This document shows, in pieces, positions 11,234 through 19,006 of a DNA stretch of 64,000 nucleotides; position 1 is the stretch's first letter; every line of letters begins with the position of its first letter. This DNA is from Paenisporosarcina antarctica (GTDB lineage: Bacteria > Bacillota > Bacilli > Bacillales_A > Planococcaceae). Below the pieces are notes generated by a model, which searched no databases, was not told where the DNA came from, and saw only the letters and a list, made by a program, of their open reading frames with translations. The DNA lies in the NCBI RefSeq assembly GCF_004367585.1, contig NZ_CP038015.1:567001-631000 (forward strand), written 5' to 3'. The position numbers and the translations under genes were made by a program.

Positions 11234-12127
11234 ATGAGTAGAAGAATGGATAATATAGCGGTCGAATTTATAACAAGAGTACAAAAGACATATTCTGATG
11301 AAAGATATTTTAAAGAAATAGATTCAAAGTATAGGAGTTGGATTGAAAATGTTAGGGCAAGTGATGATAAAAAAATCTTGAATAATTTGTTGTGCAATAT
11401 AAGGTTTTTTTCGAAAACTGAAATCAAATCTATTTTAGAAGGAGAAATAAGTAAATTAAAAGAAAGCTATGATGGTTTAAATGATGTCGTTATTTTACCG
11501 TTAAATCCCATTAACGGTAGATATAATGGTTCAAATGAATTGGTATCTTTAATTAAAGAAATTGATATTGAAGCGCAATTTAATGGGACAAGATTGTTAC
11601 CATACCGAGATTCAATTATTAATGATCTTCAATATGCTAAAGCTTATAATACTTTAATTTTTGTAGATGATATTTCAGGAACAGGAGGTACTGCTAGAAA
11701 ATTTATAAATTCTCATTATGCTGAGTTAAAGGGAAAAAAAGTAATTTTTTTATTTTTAAGCGTTACTGAACAAGCAATTAAAGAATTTAATACTTTAACT
11801 GTAGAATATAACGAAGCTCATATTGAATTTATTTATTACATAAAATTAGAAAAGCTTTCTGCTATAAATATTTTATCAACAGCACAATATGCTAGATTAA
11901 GTAATATTGAGGAGGGTTTATGGGGAAAAAATCATAATAATATATTGGGATATAAAAATTCGGAATTATTAGTATTATTCTCTCATAATATCCCGAATAA
12001 TACTGTTAGTTGTCTTTGGTACTTTTCAGAGGTGAATCCTAAAAAATGGAATAGATTATTTACACGAATCACCGCTCCAAATAGAAAGAGACAGAATTAC
12101 TCGAATTCTAAAAGGAGTAATGTCTAA
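11234..12127 (+). CDS. Retron-associated phosphoribosyltransferase-like effector
   Basis: 297 residues. A PRTase-fold signature sits at about residues 141-156: LIFVDDISGTGGTARK, hydrophobic residues, two acidic residues and a GTGGT phosphate loop, as in type I phosphoribosyltransferases that bind PRPP. The flanks (about 60-140 and 160-297) have no motif I recognise. The stop overlaps the next ATG (TAATG), so the two are translationally coupled, and an msr-msd RNA and retron reverse transcriptase follow. PRTase proteins are known effectors of one retron class (type III in the published scheme, from memory). I infer it is the toxic arm restrained by RT-msDNA. The start could also be ATG 11246; AAAGG at about 11229 suits neither perfectly. 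The gene is extremely AT-rich. Confidence 0.8.
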   Translation: MSRRMDNIAVEFITRVQKTYSDERYFKEIDSKYRSWIENVRASDDKKILNNLLCNIRFFSKTEIKSILEGEISKLKESYDGLNDVVILPLNPINGRYNGSNELVSLIKEIDIEAQFNGTRLLPYRDSIINDLQYAKAYNTLIFVDDISGTGGTARKFINSHYAELKGKKVIFLFLSVTEQAIKEFNTLTVEYNEAHIEFIYYIKLEKLSAINILSTAQYARLSNIEEGLWGKNHNNILGYKNSELLVLFSHNIPNNTVSCLWYFSEVNPKKWNRLFTRITAPNRKRQNYSNSKRSNV

Positions 12128-12444
12128 TGGATAAATATAAAATGAATATGGTATTGCACTATTTCAATAATGTTGCAGCAAGTTATTCTTATAACGAATT
12201 GCTAATGATATTTGGATTCCAAATTGAGCAGTTAGATTTGATGTTAAGGGAATTAATTGAAGAAAATTTACTCAAACTTGATGGATATTATAAGGTAACT
12301 GAATCAGGAATTAATGAATTAAAGAGACTGGGTTTATATGAGACTGAATTTGAAAATATTGAAGAACAAGAAATTTTTACAAAAATGCCAACATGTATTT
12401 CAGAAATATATATACCAAAAAGGTTTAATAAAAGCTTTAAATGA
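12127..12444 (+). CDS. Retron-associated small winged-helix protein
   Basis: 105 residues beginning MDKYKMNMVLHYFNNVAASY. Residues about 15-75 have the pattern of a winged helix: SYSYNELLMIFGF, then EQLDLMLRELIEENLLKLDG and YYKVTESGINELKRLGL, i.e. helix-turn-helix followed by a beta wing and LTxxG-like turn. It overlaps the upstream PRTase stop by TAATG. In PRTase retrons a small HTH protein accompanies the effector and is thought to be part of the complex; that role is inferred here from position. The last codons overlap a possible promoter for the msr-msd RNA. Confidence 0.75.
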   Translation: MDKYKMNMVLHYFNNVAASYSYNELLMIFGFQIEQLDLMLRELIEENLLKLDGYYKVTESGINELKRLGLYETEFENIEEQEIFTKMPTCISEIYIPKRFNKSFK

Positions 12445-12452
12445 AATATAAT
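12424..12452 (+). promoter_or_regulatory. Possible promoter of the retron msr-msd RNA
   Basis: TTTAAT at 12424-12429, 17 bases, TATAAT at 12447-12452. The expected start (about 12459) falls at the beginning of the a1 repeat, where retron RNAs begin. It lies within the 3' end of the winged-helix gene. Confidence 0.5.
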
Positions 12453-12455
12453 AAA

Positions 12456-12633
12456 ATTGTCTAGCTTCTAGATTGGCTGGGAGTCTCAGTCATAATTAAT
12501 GCTACTTTATAGCATTAGGGATAAAAAAGAAGGGCGCTTTTTAATCCCTAATCCAATTGCAAGCAATTGGATTAATATCGACAAGCGATATGAAGTAAAT
12601 TAAAACAATAAATTATAGTAGAAGCTAGACAAT
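12456..12633 (+). ncRNA. Retron msr-msd non-coding RNA
   Basis: A perfect 15-bp inverted repeat, ATTGTCTAGCTTCTA (12456-12470) and its complement (12619-12633), gives the a1/a2 stem that encloses every retron RNA. Inside it are, in order, a short msr stem (GGCTG 12475 / CAGTC 12491), a perfect 7-bp stem (AATGCTA / TAGCATT, 12498-12516), a 13-bp stem with one mismatch (12517-12549, loop AAGGGCG), a perfect 12-bp stem with loop AA (TAATCCAATTGC, 12549-12574) and a 6-bp stem (ATATCG / CGATAT, 12575-12591). The RT gene starts 17 bases after a2. The branching guanosine should lie just after a1 (G12471 or a nearby G). The exact msr/msd border and msDNA 5' end cannot be set from sequence. Confidence 0.88.
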
Positions 12634-12649
12634 AATTAGGAGATACATT

Positions 12650-13669
12650 ATGGATTATGTAGATGAGTTAAAAATGAAGATGATTAATAGAGGATTCTCA
12701 ACTAAATATATTGATAAATGTACAACATATGCAGAGAATTTATATAACAAAAATTCACCTATAATATTTGATATAAAACATTTATCGAAAATAATGGGAA
12801 TAAGTTATCCTATATTGTTTCACTATATATATAATAATCAAAAATTTTATAAAGAATTTAAAATCCCAAAAAAATCTGGATCATATAGAGTTATTGATGC
12901 TCCAAGTCTAAACTTAAAAAAAATTCAAAGGTGGATTCTAGATAACATATTGGTGAATTTTTCTATTAGCAAATATGCCATGGGTTTTAAAAAACAAGTT
13001 AACATTGTTGAAAATGCACAGATACATACGAATAAAGAACTTGTATATAATATAGATATTAAAGACTTTTTTCCATCAATCTCATTCGAAAATGTTTATT
13101 TTATATTTTATAATATTGGATATTCATCAGAAGTTTCGTATGCTTTTGCTAAACTAATGACCTATAAAGGATATTTACCTCAAGGTTCTCCATGTAGTCC
13201 AATTATATCTAACATACTTTGTATCAATCTTGATGAATCAATGAATTCTTTATCAAAGAATATTGGAGCGAATTATTCAAGATATGCAGATGATATGACT
13301 ATATCAACAAATGATATACCTACATTTTTAGTTAAAAAAGGAGCTTTTAAAAATATTATTGAGTTCTATGGTTTTAAATTAAATGATAAAAAAGAACGTA
13401 TGCAATATAAAAATCATCCTCAATTTGTTACTGGGCTTTTGGTTAATAACAAAGTACGGGTTAGAAGAGTATTTAAAAAAGAAGTTGAACAGCAAATTTA
13501 TTATTGTGAAAAATATGGAATATTTAATCATTTGAAAGAGTTAGGTTTGGAAGATAGGTCATTTTTTAAAGAATATATATATGGTAAAGTAAATTTTATT
13601 AAAAGTGTTGAACCTGAAGTTGCTGAGCGATTTCTTGAAAGATTGAATCGATTAAAATGGTCTTATTGA
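12650..13669 (+). CDS. Retron reverse transcriptase
   Basis: 339-residue retron RT. It carries the retron-specific NAxxH motif (NAQIH, residues 122-126), the palm aspartate of YNIDIKDFFPSI (about 134-144), LPQGSPCSPIISN (176-188), the catalytic YADD box (RYADDMTIS, 211-219) and the VTG motif (QFVTGLLVNN, 258-267) that recognises its own RNA. The size fits single-domain retron RTs. It has a good ribosome site (TTAGGAG) and lies immediately after the msr-msd RNA, which it should copy into branched msDNA. Upstream PRTase and winged-helix genes complete the module. Base composition is strongly AT-rich compared with chromosomal neighbours, suggesting horizontal acquisition. Confidence 0.95.
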   Translation: MDYVDELKMKMINRGFSTKYIDKCTTYAENLYNKNSPIIFDIKHLSKIMGISYPILFHYIYNNQKFYKEFKIPKKSGSYRVIDAPSLNLKKIQRWILDNILVNFSISKYAMGFKKQVNIVENAQIHTNKELVYNIDIKDFFPSISFENVYFIFYNIGYSSEVSYAFAKLMTYKGYLPQGSPCSPIISNILCINLDESMNSLSKNIGANYSRYADDMTISTNDIPTFLVKKGAFKNIIEFYGFKLNDKKERMQYKNHPQFVTGLLVNNKVRVRRVFKKEVEQQIYYCEKYGIFNHLKELGLEDRSFFKEYIYGKVNFIKSVEPEVAERFLERLNRLKWSY

Positions 13670-14356: not shown

Positions 14357-14665
14357 ATGGCACATTTCTCATTACAAACATTGAGAAAAATTATTGAGTA
14401 CTTTCCTACTCCACAAGAAGAGTACAATCTTGACCCTTCCTATGAAGATACAAATTCAGAAATTGTGGAGCATTCTATAATTAGACCTTATGCAATACCT
14501 GAAAATGTAGCAATTTTTAAGAACTTGCAACAATTTCAAGATGTAGGACTAGTAGTACCTATTGAATCAGATTATATGTATTTTGCTGCTATGAATTCTA
14601 AATCATGTAGACTTACATCTTTAGGTCATCATTACTGGAGGCTTGTTAAAGACAAAAGACTTTAA
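14357..14665 (+). CDS. Small protein of unknown function
   Basis: 102 residues with ATGGAGGAG about nine bases before the ATG. The C-terminus (CRLTSLGHHYWRLVKDKRL) has the RLTxxGHxFxxxI look of DUF2513-type small winged-helix proteins, and residues 65-80 could be the wing, but the N-terminal half does not match any family I know. It lies between the retron and the helicase-nuclease-peptidase gene, with no partner. It may be an accessory or phage-derived regulator; that is a guess from location. Confidence 0.5.
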   Translation: MAHFSLQTLRKIIEYFPTPQEEYNLDPSYEDTNSEIVEHSIIRPYAIPENVAIFKNLQQFQDVGLVVPIESDYMYFAAMNSKSCRLTSLGHHYWRLVKDKRL

Positions 14666-14795
14666 TTGAGTAAATCATTTTAGTGGGAAAATTTTATTGT
14701 TATTTAATTTTAGTTTTTTCAGGGCTTCTGCCATCCCCTTTTGCTGAAACGATCGGTTATGGGAGCTTCTAAATTACAGTATATATTGAAAAACT

Positions 14796-14845
14796 AGAAG
14801 ACACCCCCAATCAAGCTACTATTAGCTTGATTGGGGGTGTCTTCT
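14796..14845 (-). terminator. Long perfect terminator hairpin
   Basis: A perfect 23-bp stem (left arm starts AGAAGACACCCCCAATC) with loop CTAT. The minus strand continues into AGTTTTTC, so it probably ends transcription of the leftward small membrane gene. Confidence 0.75.
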
Positions 14846-15035
14846 GTTTGCAAACTCGAGGAACGAAATAGTAATAATTGTTCCTTTTCTAGGAATGGGA
14901 AAATACAAGAGCAGCTGAAGTGCATCTTCCTAAGTCGAGTATATTGCTCTATGGTGAATACTAGTAGCAACCTTGTTAAACTCATTTCCAACATCCTAGA
15001 TCAAGGAATAGCCTGTTTTCATTTCGACGTCTTAA

Positions 15036-15457: not shown

Positions 15458-15486
15458 TTGCTATATACCTAATCAGTATCTAAAAT
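15458..15486 (+). promoter_or_regulatory. Promoter of the helicase-nuclease-peptidase gene
   Basis: TTGCTA at 15458-15463, 17 bases, TAAAAT at 15481-15486, then a leader of about 40 bases to the ATG with GGAGGTGG. By eye no LexA box (CGAAC-N4-GTTCG) overlaps it. Confidence 0.55.
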
Positions 15487-15534: not shown

Positions 15535-17970
15535 ATGAAACTAAATATGGAGCAACGAAGGATTGTAGAGCTCGAACCAAATGGTCATATGATGGTTAAA
15601 GGTGTTGCAGGGTCAGGCAAGACGACTGTGGCAATTAGACGCATTTCCTTTTTGCAAAATCATTACAGTCATGAAGAAGATGATACGATTCTTCTCGTCA
15701 CTTACAATAAAACACTACTACAATACATAAAATATCAATATCAAAAACTTGCCGATGAAGAGCAGGAAAAATATGAACAGTTATTCGCCAAGGAAAGTGA
15801 GGTTGAAATTGTAACGATTGATAGCCTCATGTATAAATATTTTACACAGCACATACGCCGTTTGAACCTTTCATTGAAACCCTCTAATAATATGTTGGAT
15901 CATAAGGTAATGATAAAGGCGATCCACCATGTGCAACACAAATACCCGAAGAGTAAAATAATATCTCCCAAAAATAGTCTTTTCTTATTGGATGAAGTAA
16001 CTTGGATTAACGCCTGTCAGATTGAAGATGTAGCCACGTATCAACAAATTGATCGAACAGGCCGAGCATCGGGTGGGAGTGGGGCACCTCAAAAACTTTC
16101 GAGAAACTCAGATCTTCGTGCAGGAATCTTTGAATTGATGGAGACATTTAACGAATTACTTGCCAAAGAAGGTTATCTAACCTTTAAACAAATGAACTTA
16201 TTGGCTTTGCAAGAAGCCCAGCAAATGAATCACGGGAAGTATACACATGTCATCATAGATGAAAGTCAAGATTTGACGAAAGTGCAGCTAGAATTTTTAA
16301 AATGTATATATCAGGAGAAAGCATATTCGTCGATCATGTTTGTTGCAGATAATACACAAAGTATTTATTCGCAATCATGGCTCGGAAAAGGAAGACCATA
16401 TACATCAATAGGGTACGATATGAGTGGGAAATCAAGAATTCTCAGTAAAAATTATCGTACAACGACTGAAATTTCAAAGGCAGCCTACCAGCTCATTGAA
16501 AATGATTCTTCTATTAATGCGAATGTAGACTTTGTAAAGCCTTCATTAATTGATCGGCATGGTCATCCACCTATTTATCGTTTTTTTACGTCAAGCCAAA
16601 ATCAAATCAACTTTTTAATTAAAGAAATACAGACGCTTACAAATGATTATCGATATGCTGAAATATGTATTGTAGCTAAAGAAAAAAGAATTATTGAGAG
16701 CGTGAGCCAAGGATTACAGAGTGGGGGAATTGCATGTGAAATCCTTCAGTCTTCGGAAGCCAATTTTGAGTCGGATAAAGTGAAATTGGTGACCATGCAT
16801 TCGATTAAAGGGCTAGAATTCAAAGTCATCTTTTTGATTGATTTGAATGAAGGTGTCATCCCGAATACGCGACTTTATGATTTGGATGAAGAAGAAATGA
16901 TGGATTCAGAAGATCGCAAATTGTTGTATGTAGGGATGACGCGGGCAAATGAATTGTTATATATGTCTTCCGTTAATAAGCCAACCAAATTTATTAAAGA
17001 AATGAATATGGAATATCTTCGGATGCAAAGAGATTGCCAATTACGTCCTTTCCAATCCATTGGAATTCAAGGGTATGAGCTAACAAACCAAGTGACTGAT
17101 CTAAATTCTAAAGAAGAAGTTGTCCGTCAATGGTTGATACGGGAGCTATACCAAACGTATGGATATCCACTTGATTTGTTGGAACTGGAGTTTCCGGTAC
17201 AGCAGTTTTCAAAAAAAGGCTATATTGATATTGCTGTGCAGATCTATGCCAAAGGTGAAATTGTTCCGTATATCTTCGCTGAAGTGAAACGGTTCGGAAG
17301 TGGAATTCAAGATGCCACCCAACAATTGAAATCGTATCTAGAAGCAAATTCACGTGTCCGTTATGGAATCGTTACGGATGGAATCGATGTGATTTGTATG
17401 GATCGATCAGGTGAGGTTCTCAATGACCTGCCGAAATGCCAACCGCAATTTTTACCTGAAACGAAAAATAGAAAATTGTATGTAAACTTGAAAAATAATA
17501 AAAAGTATAGCATGTCAACAGAGTTAGACAATGAAAATATTGTTGAAATTACGGACGTAGAATCAGGCTTATTGGTGAATTTTGATATGAAATGCAAGAT
17601 TCCCCTTATTGGCGATGTGGCAGCAGGCGTTCCAATATCCATCAATATTGTGTATGATTCTGTCCTTACTCTGCCTAAAGAATGGGTTGTATCTGAATCA
17701 AACTCATTTGCACTCATTGTTACAGGCGATAGTATGAAGGATGCAGGTATCGATAAAGGGGATGTTGTCATCGTCAATCGTCAGCAATCTGCTTCTAATG
17801 GAGATATTGTCATTGCCATTATTGACGAAGAAGCGACCATGAAGAAATTCATGCCAATGGGTGACTCCATCCTACTCCTTTCCGAGAACCCGAAATACGA
17901 ACCAATCCAAATGAAGAAAGAAGATGTGTTGATTAACGGCAAAGTTATTGGATTTATGAAGAATCAATAA
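15535..17970 (+). CDS. UvrD-type helicase / PD-(D/E)xK nuclease / LexA-like S24 peptidase fusion
   Basis: 811 residues with three parts. Residues 1 to about 510 are an SF1 UvrD/Rep helicase: Walker A GVAGSGKTT (K29), motif II IIDESQD (D242-E243), a Q-R rich NYRTTTEIS, motif V VTMHSIKGLEFK (419-430) and motif VI LLYVGMTRA (463-471). Residues about 535-660 look like a type I restriction HsdR_N/PD-(D/E)xK nuclease: GYIDIAV (D565) and FAEVKRF (E583, K585). Residues about 685-811 are a LexA/UmuD-type S24 peptidase: IGDVAAGVP with Ala697-Gly698 as predicted cleavage bond, GDSM serine S733, and lysine K770 in TMKKF. No LexA DNA-binding domain is present. It is monocistronic, with its own promoter and terminator. 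Family knowledge suggests DNA unwinding and cutting under control of RecA-stimulated self-cleavage; this is inference. Confidence 0.9.
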   Translation: MKLNMEQRRIVELEPNGHMMVKGVAGSGKTTVAIRRISFLQNHYSHEEDDTILLVTYNKTLLQYIKYQYQKLADEEQEKYEQLFAKESEVEIVTIDSLMYKYFTQHIRRLNLSLKPSNNMLDHKVMIKAIHHVQHKYPKSKIISPKNSLFLLDEVTWINACQIEDVATYQQIDRTGRASGGSGAPQKLSRNSDLRAGIFELMETFNELLAKEGYLTFKQMNLLALQEAQQMNHGKYTHVIIDESQDLTKVQLEFLKCIYQEKAYSSIMFVADNTQSIYSQSWLGKGRPYTSIGYDMSGKSRILSKNYRTTTEISKAAYQLIENDSSINANVDFVKPSLIDRHGHPPIYRFFTSSQNQINFLIKEIQTLTNDYRYAEICIVAKEKRIIESVSQGLQSGGIACEILQSSEANFESDKVKLVTMHSIKGLEFKVIFLIDLNEGVIPNTRLYDLDEEEMMDSEDRKLLYVGMTRANELLYMSSVNKPTKFIKEMNMEYLRMQRDCQLRPFQSIGIQGYELTNQVTDLNSKEEVVRQWLIRELYQTYGYPLDLLELEFPVQQFSKKGYIDIAVQIYAKGEIVPYIFAEVKRFGSGIQDATQQLKSYLEANSRVRYGIVTDGIDVICMDRSGEVLNDLPKCQPQFLPETKNRKLYVNLKNNKKYSMSTELDNENIVEITDVESGLLVNFDMKCKIPLIGDVAAGVPISINIVYDSVLTLPKEWVVSESNSFALIVTGDSMKDAGIDKGDVVIVNRQQSASNGDIVIAIIDEEATMKKFMPMGDSILLLSENPKYEPIQMKKEDVLINGKVIGFMKNQ

Positions 17971-18005: not shown

Positions 18006-18044
18006 AAGCGACTGAAATTAAATTTCGGTCGCTTCAACTTTTTT
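18006..18044 (+). terminator. Rho-independent terminator after the fusion gene
   Basis: AAGCGACTGAAAT pairs with ATTTCGGTCGCTT (one G-T type mismatch), followed by CAACTTTTTT. Confidence 0.85.
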
Positions 18045-18071: not shown

Positions 18072-18134
18072 TATGGGTGGCACTTTATCCTCAAAAATGC
18101 ACAGGTACCAACAAAGGAAAAAGTGCCACCCATA
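18072..18134. repeat. Long imperfect inverted repeat
   Basis: TATGGGTGGCACTTTATCC pairs with GGAAAAAGTGCCACCCATA (18 of 19 positions) around a 25-base loop. It resembles the short dispersed GGTGNCAC-type palindromes of Bacillales intergenic regions rather than a normal terminator, because no T-run follows on the plus strand. Copies elsewhere cannot be checked here. Confidence 0.6.
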
Positions 18135-18178
18135 GAAAAGGGATAATGATAAACTATTTATAGAGGGAGGTTATCATA

Positions 18179-18700
18179 ATGAAGTTTCAGATTGAAGAGG
18201 CAATTGAAATACTCGAACGTACACCAAAAGTTCTTAGTAATTTACTTATTGGATTATCGAATTCATGGACTGTTTGTGACGAAGGAGAAGCAACTTGGAA
18301 TGCCTTTGATGTAATTGGCCACCTTATCGAAGGGGAAAAATATAATTGGATTCCACGAATAGAAACAATTATTTCAAAGGGAGAAACGGAAAACTTCCCT
18401 GTATTTGATCGCTTTAGTCAACTTCACCAAAACTCACAGAAAACTATTGAACAATTGCTTAGTGAGTTTACTGAACTCCGTTTGAATAGCCTAGAAAGGT
18501 TAAGCAGTTTAATTAACTCTCTTACAGATTTAGAACAAACGGGTTTACATCCGGAATTTGGAAGTGTAAAACTTAGAGAACAAATATCAACATGGGTTGC
18601 CCATGATCTTGATCATATATCCCAAATTGCCAGAGTGATGGCAAAACGGTATAAAGAAGATGTTGGACCTTGGAAGGCTTATCTGCGTATCCTGAATTAA
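18179..18700 (+). CDS. DinB-family protein
   Basis: 173 residues of the DinB/YfiT four-helix bundle superfamily. The three histidines expected to bind a metal are visible in FDVIGHLIEGEKYNW (first helix pair) and in WVAHDLDHISQIARVM (HxxxH) near the C-terminus. The family includes thiol-dependent transferases and the DNA-damage-inducible DinB of B. subtilis; most members are of unknown substrate. Ribosome site GAGGGAGG lies upstream of the ATG. It sits alone between the inverted repeat and the malonate transporter. The name does not imply polymerase activity. Confidence 0.85.
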   Translation: MKFQIEEAIEILERTPKVLSNLLIGLSNSWTVCDEGEATWNAFDVIGHLIEGEKYNWIPRIETIISKGETENFPVFDRFSQLHQNSQKTIEQLLSEFTELRLNSLERLSSLINSLTDLEQTGLHPEFGSVKLREQISTWVAHDLDHISQIARVMAKRYKEDVGPWKAYLRILN

Positions 18701-19006
18701 TAAACTCTTAAAAAACTTATAATTGGACCCAAAATGCTAGAAGAGATAGATCAATTGCATTAATAAAGCAGGGATCCAGCAATTAAGCTAGTAGCTTAAT
18801 TTTTATAATATTAGTTATTCAAATGATGAAAAATAAAAGGGAAGACACCTATACTCATAGCATATTATTCTAAATTCGATACATACGATACTCAAGTAAT
18901 GAAATGCGGTTTCCCTAAGGAAATAATATTTCAAACTGGAGTAATATAAATACAACTGCCGCCTGCAAGTAACTCTCTGACATTATCAATATTTTATAAA
19001 AATAAG
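18701..19006. other. Gene-free stretch
   Basis: No gene seen. AAGCTAGTAGCTT at about 18785-18797 is a small palindrome without a T-run. Confidence 0.4.

Follow-up and report, generated by a model that had tools for sequence, protein, structure and literature searches.

Why would a DNA helicase-nuclease carry a LexA-type peptidase at its C-terminus, and what would follow if that peptidase cut its own chain? One gene raises the question. It lies in a 64,000-nucleotide stretch of the Paenisporosarcina antarctica genome (NZ_CP038015.1, positions 567,001 to 631,000), all of which we call the window. Proteases of the LexA type are known from repressors and from UmuD, and the host genome (3.97 Mb, two contigs) encodes RecA, LexA and ClpX.

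Domain architecture

The gene is one uninterrupted reading frame (Table 1), and the opposite-strand frame examined over the same interval is riddled with stops. Within the 811-residue protein, Pfam places UvrD-helicase at residues 3-279, UvrD_C at 407-481, HSDR_N_2 at 526-632 and Peptidase_S24 at 690-805. Since the identical domain order spans residues 1-810 in relatives from many genomes, a chance reading frame is excluded. The original prediction, made from the letters of the window, was that helicase, nuclease and S24 peptidase are joined in one polypeptide; reading frame, Pfam calls and 56 full-length homologues bear this out. All residues it had named are in place: K29, D242-E243-S244, T469-R470, D565, E583-V-K585, A697-G698 (in IGDVAAGVP), S733 (in GDSM) and K770.

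Table 1. Features of the gene and its surroundings, in positions of the window
Feature	Position	Strand	Basis
Helicase/nuclease/S24 peptidase gene	15535..17970	+	Single 811-residue ORF, ATG start, stop codon within coordinates
SF1 (UvrD/PcrA-type) helicase core, about residues 3-490	15541..17004	+	PF00580, PF13361; Walker A K29, DES 242-244, R308, R470
PD-(D/E)xK nuclease, residues 526-632	17110..17430	+	PF13588 HSDR_N_2; G562xxD565, E583xK585, Q597xxxY601
Linker, residues 636-688	17440..17598	+	Predicted beta strands 644-651, 656-663, 670-674; poor conservation
LexA-type S24 autoprotease, residues 689-811	17599..17967	+	PF00717 E 9e-31, NCBIfam lexA, LexA fold match
Predicted scissile bond Ala697-Gly698	17623..17628	+	55/56 homologues; spacing to Ser/Lys
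Catalytic Ser733	17731..17733	+	56/56 homologues
Catalytic Lys770	17842..17844	+	56/56 homologues
Terminator-like stem-loop and T tail downstream of the gene	18006..18034	+	Consensus scan; 6 such sites versus 3.2 in shuffles
Nearest upstream promoter-like match	15458-15486		Consensus only; such matches no commoner than in shuffles
Retron PRTase	11234-12127		PADLOC type III-A retron, upstream
Retron winged helix	12127-12444		PADLOC type III-A retron, upstream
Retron RT	12650-13669		PADLOC type III-A retron, upstream

By sequence and by fold alike, the best PDB matches to the helicase are PcrA and UvrD, and chains of AddAB and RecBCD are among the fold matches. GxxD, ExK and QxxxY are the motifs that define a RecB/AddA-type nuclease, the QxxxY form being typical of RecB, AddAB, Cas4 and HsdR nucleases. 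Judged by its motifs the nuclease looks RecB/AddAB-like, and with its UvrD-type motor the whole protein has a layout resembling that of AddA or RecB. The equivalog scores for these enzymes were not reached (addA_Gpos, 57 bits against a cut-off of 707.65; recB, 50.7 bits against 696.05). In the defence libraries the top matches, both made through the helicase core, were Gabija GajB with 116 bits and the PADLOC family C3a187 (NERD+UvrD) with 119 bits. Neither a RecC/AddB-like gene nor Gabija GajA was matched among the five neighbouring ORFs scanned.

The S24 part passes the cut-off of the NCBIfam lexA model (TIGR00498; 116.6 bits against 110.95) and scores lower with the UmuD model (75.9 bits, cut-off 110). 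A LexA DNA-binding domain had been predicted to be missing, and rightly so: Pfam found none, and TIGR00498 aligned at its positions 78-201 of 203 only. An AlphaFold model of the whole protein reached a mean pLDDT of 80.8, with values below 50 in the loop just after the bond (698-706) and likewise in five other segments. For a C-terminal model (505-811; mean pLDDT 85.2) LexA was the top fold match, with target-normalised TM scores of 0.87 and 0.88 to LexA chains of RecA-filament structures (8s7g_A and 8gms_A) and 0.89 to the LexA mutant 1jhe. A tree was built from 54 S24 domains of the family (55 were aligned; L096, being short, was omitted) together with 45 distinct C-terminal domains of LexA, and one branch splits the family from LexA at 100/99 and in 200/200 bootstrap trees. 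With few columns, no outgroup and a midpoint drawing that puts LexA inside the family, this tree does not give the root or the direction of descent. The sequence data support the S24 part as a LexA-type self-cleaving domain with a Ser-Lys dyad and a predicted scissile bond.

Distribution of the family

Helicase-nuclease-S24 proteins form a coherent family, patchily distributed and mostly found in Bacillota. Within the Planococcaceae, 35 of 261 genomes and 7 of 19 genera had a match at E 1e-60 or better, four of these 35 matches (G127, G079, G082 and G089) being broken or cut short in the match table. Among 398 evenly drawn Bacillota genomes, 18 gave a match below 1e-140, the own genome included; two of the 18 carry stops (G310 and G463) and one is split across contigs (G652). 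LexA and other helicases make up most of the weaker matches listed in this tally. The species-genome collection, in a pattern-seeded scan, yielded 60 loci, two of which (L097 and L098) are short weak matches only and some others fragments or broken copies; this collection also holds members in Desulfosarcina and Propionigenium. One full-length member, from Ilyobacter polytropus (39% identity), was found in 72,556 plasmid records.

A phage origin was considered and rejected as far as the scans reach: at the settings used, pattern-seeded or limited by E-value, phage and viral collections contained no full-length member. When viral contigs were searched with the single protein, no relative was obtained. 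A search with the family alignment gave 38 loci, all within residues 1-528 and thus on the helicase side only, and in two Vibrio phages the match is confined to the helicase (residues 3-478). In the literature, searched by titles and abstract openings and with subscription papers mostly outside its scope, we found no description of this architecture.

Several members are broken. Programmed frameshifting or phase variation was considered for L040, L078, L079 and L088 and rejected, for L088 only tentatively: the breaks lie at differing places and are taken as decay or sequence error. The break in L088 sits at a run of seven A; by eye, the other three are without such a run. Broken copies also occur in G082, G079, G310 and G463, and they fit an accessory role. 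L062, which lacks residues 1-14 and 640-811, is probably a remnant and therefore provides no example of a working form without S24. Genome G618 encodes, in addition to a full-length member, a 495-residue paralogue. It retains roughly 300 residues from the start of the helicase (motif II being altered to DEGE), part of the linker and an S24 domain with AAG, Ser and Lys, and has lost the remaining helicase and the nuclease. This paralogue may be a decoy or a dimer partner; because it has S24 and no nuclease, S24 may serve more than nuclease control.

Conservation of the predicted self-cleavage machinery

Residue conservation was counted over 56 proteins of at least 780 residues and without internal stops, from which truncated, frameshifted and identical sequences had been removed; 44 came from the species-genome scan and the rest from Planococcaceae genomes or plasmid records. 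Their identity to the window protein ranges from 39 to 100% (below 50% in 11, 60% or more in 37), and since at least 14 of the 56 are Planococcus or Planomicrobium, the counts do not represent independent events. Invariant in 56/56 are K29, T30, D242, E243, Q275, R308, H422, R470, D565, E583, K585, Q597, S733, M734 and K770, and in a 34-row alignment also G562 and Y601. A697 and G698 are each present in 55/56, with the same single exception, and A696 in 52/56; position 695 holds V in 49 proteins and I in the other 7. In the linker (636-688), zero columns are conserved at 97% or more. The original prediction had been tied beforehand to whether homologues keep the Ala-Gly bond, Ser and Lys; all three are conserved while the linker preceding them is not, and the prediction survives.

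The exception, L038 of Ilyobacter, reads VSGD in place of VAAG, with an Asp directly after the bond and with Ser and Lys retained; L085 (Propionigenium) reads ISAG at the bond. LexA G85D is a known non-cleaving form, and 1jhf, a structure in our fold-match list, is titled LEXA G85D MUTANT. The distance from the P1 residue to Ser is 36 residues in 52/55 members and 35 in 3/55, and that from Ser to Lys is 37 in 55/55; the corresponding ranges in 50 Bacillota LexA rows are 35-37 and 37-38. Predicted cleavage would leave VAA or IAA as the end in 52/55 family members, compared with VTA in 42 and VAA in 8 of the 50 LexA rows, although 52/55 against 42/50 is not a test, because the rows are related, with the own LexA included twice alongside others from the genus of the window. 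In E. coli, where LexA also has VAA before the bond, the VAA end of the LexA fragment is a ClpX signal.

Between the window protein and its closest relative L039 (87% identical), dN/dS was 0.058 for S24, 0.087 for the helicase, 0.143 for the nuclease, and 0.105 and 0.237 for the first and second linker, respectively. The 24 codons around the bond (residues 689-712; 83% identical) gave 0.126. By this pairwise measure constraint is strongest in the S24 domain taken as a unit, but not in its cleavage loop.

Genomic neighbourhood

A retron had been reported about 2 kb from the gene, and the type III-A retron does end 1.9 kb upstream. Within three genes, a retron-type RT was found in 3/42 loci, namely at the window and L041 (both best matched by III-A) and at L062 (best matched by XI). 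The PRTase and winged-helix genes, sought with one query sequence each so that divergent ones may be missed, turned up at no locus other than the window. Given this sparse linkage, the retron probably just shares an accessory stretch with the gene without being its partner.

The three nearest genes on each side of 42 loci were scanned with PADLOC at E 1e-25 (237/248 scanned, the window's six genes and five others being left out). In these near genes 87 PADLOC families were matched in 115 proteins and 65 in 122, compared with 15 families in genes 6 to 8 away (149/155 scanned; the window's six dropped); these counts are a pointer and not a tally of defence genes, as one protein can match several families and near genes have the greater average length. 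Nine proteins were checked singly. The L041 neighbours proved to be a retron-type RT, PDC-S07 and a full-length match to a type IV restriction enzyme, and the L062 neighbour a type XI retron RT. A neighbour of L053 matches a type IV restriction enzyme solely across its helicase part, for the RT near L185 the best match was not a retron model, and two of the nine proteins had no match. We take the family to live in accessory stretches that are rich in defence genes; the neighbours hint at defence, and a defence role is plausible.

A conserved partner gene was sought among 904 neighbour genes around 60 targets, and none was found. In this set 24 neighbour clusters recur in at least four loci; 15 of them lie wholly within Planococcus/Planomicrobium, while the others sit at varying distances from the gene or look generic. 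SF2-helicase-like proteins of differing length and architecture lie near the gene in six loci. A protein of about 580-610 residues is encoded next downstream, in the same orientation, in L069, L088 and L089, and upstream in L070.

Transcriptional control

The gene looks monocistronic. Within 300 nt upstream, the strict LexA box (GAAC-N4-GTT[CT] or its mirror) was found in 0/55 stretches (the window's own counted twice) and a looser form in 0/54, and the best upstream scores were no higher than those of shuffles. Among controls in the host genome, lexA was matched by the strict and the looser form and recA by the looser form only. CGAAC-N4-GTTCG has no exact copy in the host genome and was too strict, hence the use of looser forms. 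Judged by these upstream regions, the gene is probably not SOS-induced, and any link to damage would be post-translational.

A proposed off switch and its alternatives

From the comparisons above, the S24 domain very likely cleaves itself, and RecA is the likely trigger. Because nearly every relative examined has kept what self-cutting requires, the cell probably switches its helicase-nuclease by this route, and by a modest margin the cut is more likely to turn the enzyme off than on. The reading we prefer, to which we assign a probability of about 0.4, is that of a helicase-nuclease with a LexA-type autoprotease in which RecA-triggered cleavage after Ala697 would lead to removal by ClpXP, with the nuclease turned off. 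The protein would be made without SOS induction and would act at DNA ends or forks. RecA filaments on single-stranded DNA would bind the S24 domain and bring about cleavage after Ala697; the freed helicase-nuclease of 697 residues, ending in -VAA, would pass to ClpXP as the fragment of LexA does, and the nuclease would be shut off. The enzyme would then act on DNA outside RecA-mediated repair, for example on phage DNA, and would be removed where the cell's own recombination takes over, the switch being a built-in counterpart of restriction alleviation. RecA-stimulated cleavage of LexA exposes residues that promote degradation of both fragments, according to PMC9578287, which cites Neher 2003. 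The -(V/I)AA end predicted here is of the type that marks the LexA fragment for ClpX and therefore weakly favours the off direction, although it may reflect merely what the active site of the peptidase accepts.

The reverse polarity, in which S24 restrains the enzyme and phage replication or damage brings about RecA filaments, so that the freed residues 1-697 destroy phage or host DNA, corresponds to the damage- or phage-triggered nuclease of the original prediction and seems to us somewhat unlikely. It draws on the same residue conservation and dN/dS data as the off direction, known defence genes adjoin some members, and nuclease-helicase defence systems (AbpAB and others) are activated by damage or by phage SSB (PMC10732053). 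The degradation-type end in 52/55 members speaks against it, however, and mitomycin C activation of AbpAB needed neither RecA nor LexA in PMC10732053, so that AbpAB offers no precedent for RecA. A trigger other than RecA, such as another partner, oligomerisation or DNA occupancy acting on a genuine self-cleavage, has a parallel in IrvR, an S24 regulator of Streptococcus mutans that is reported to depart from the rule of RecA dependence (PMC7101444); we nonetheless hold it to be improbable, as the S24 part passes the NCBI LexA cut-off and fits the LexA chains of RecA-bound structures, and the host has both RecA and LexA. Least of all do we expect S24 to be a docking or dimerisation module, binding RecA filaments or forming a dimer like that of the LexA C-terminal domain, with cleavage incidental. 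The LexA C-terminal domain does contribute to dimerisation and LexA does interact with RecA filaments (PMC9578287), and L038 keeps Ser and Lys without the usual scissile bond, but Ser in 56/56, Lys in 56/56 and Ala-Gly in 55/56 homologues, down to 39% identity, would hardly be kept for docking alone.

The off switch could also take a narrower form. Because the nuclease motifs look RecB/AddAB-like, RecA filaments might silence the enzyme that resects the DNA on which they form. In such product feedback, which we consider unlikely, the enzyme would unwind and trim DNA ends, its LexA-type tail would read directly the RecA filament loaded by the cell on its own resected DNA, and self-cleavage would lead to the enzyme's destruction. 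Loaded RecA would then be a mark of self, in a Chi-like role as for RecBCD/AddAB that needs no DNA sequence signal, and invader DNA not coated by host RecA would stay open to attack. More generally, if the protease controls the enzyme, a damage sensor would govern a DNA-degrading enzyme directly and post-translationally, without transcription, which bears on how helicase-nucleases of defence and repair distinguish self from foreign DNA.

Relation to known systems

As in RecB and AddA, a UvrD-type helicase precedes a nuclease that bears GxxD, ExK and QxxxY, but the protein differs from them: it has 811 residues, a nuclease of the HSDR_N_2 type and an attached S24 domain. It differs from Gabija and C3a187 in carrying its own nuclease and protease domains within the same chain. 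LexA has the same C-terminal autoprotease, with the Ser-Lys dyad, the Ala-Gly bond, nearly equal spacings and the same fold; its winged-helix DNA-binding domain is absent here, where the protease is attached to a helicase-nuclease and not to a repressor. UmuD, like the present domain, is an S24 autoprotease that is no repressor, and its RecA-induced cleavage yields the active form of a polymerase subunit (PMC9578287); it is a separate small subunit, however, whereas the protease studied here forms the C-terminus of the enzyme itself. The proposed logic comes closest to the alleviation of type I restriction by ClpXP, described for EcoKI (PMC11109961), in that a nuclease would be removed proteolytically when the cell's own DNA would be attacked. 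In EcoKI alleviation ClpXP acts on the restriction complexes, whereas here self-cleavage would create the signal.

Sequences flanking the gene

Upstream of the gene for the 811-aa helicase-nuclease-S24 protein, in the interval that separates it from a retron, lies a 102-aa ORF that matched no family in Pfam, PADLOC or NCBIfam, and an Rfam scan of the window returned no ncRNA family at gathering score. Sequences akin to the near-perfect palindrome that follows also occur in G073 and G076, both from the same genus.

Downstream, the imperfect palindrome (RNA fold z -5.6) has nine further copies of 75-83% identity in the P. antarctica genome, eight of which fall within 2.61-2.65 Mb. By its appearance this may be a REP-like element. 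The neighbouring DinB-like gene region shares 90% DNA identity with a stretch in G072. Because the G072 contig that bears this relative also carries copies of the downstream palindrome, the DinB-like region may, judging from these sequences, travel with repeats of this type.

Features around the gene and at loci with homologues of its product
Feature	Position	Strand	Remarks
Retron	window 11234-13669		PADLOC type III-A; PRTase, winged-helix protein, RT
Small ORF	window 14357-14665
Near-perfect palindrome	window 14791-14849		lies upstream of the gene; 20 or more pairs in its stem
Long imperfect palindrome	window 18074-18136		separates the gene from the DinB-like gene
DinB-like gene region	window 18149-18703
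Ilyobacter homologue	L038:8001-10430		VSGD where the window has VAAG
Evansella copy	L062:10001-11875		lacks residues 1-14 and the S24 domain
495-aa paralogue	L181:6834-8321	+	genome G618

Departures from the family pattern

In addition to a full-length protein, G618 carries a short paralogue in which helicase domain 1, with an altered motif II, is fused to the S24 domain. The nuclease and the C-terminal half of the helicase have been lost from it; its S24 domain keeps AAG, the Ser and the Lys. The truncated Evansella copy is adjoined by a type XI retron RT. At L088, the Halolactibacillus alkaliphilus locus, the reading frame is broken at a run of seven A (around 11190), which may reflect a sequence error, decay or slippage. 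The Ilyobacter homologue has Asp directly after the bond position and nevertheless retains the Ser and the Lys; LexA G85D, a non-cleaving form, likewise has Asp at this place.
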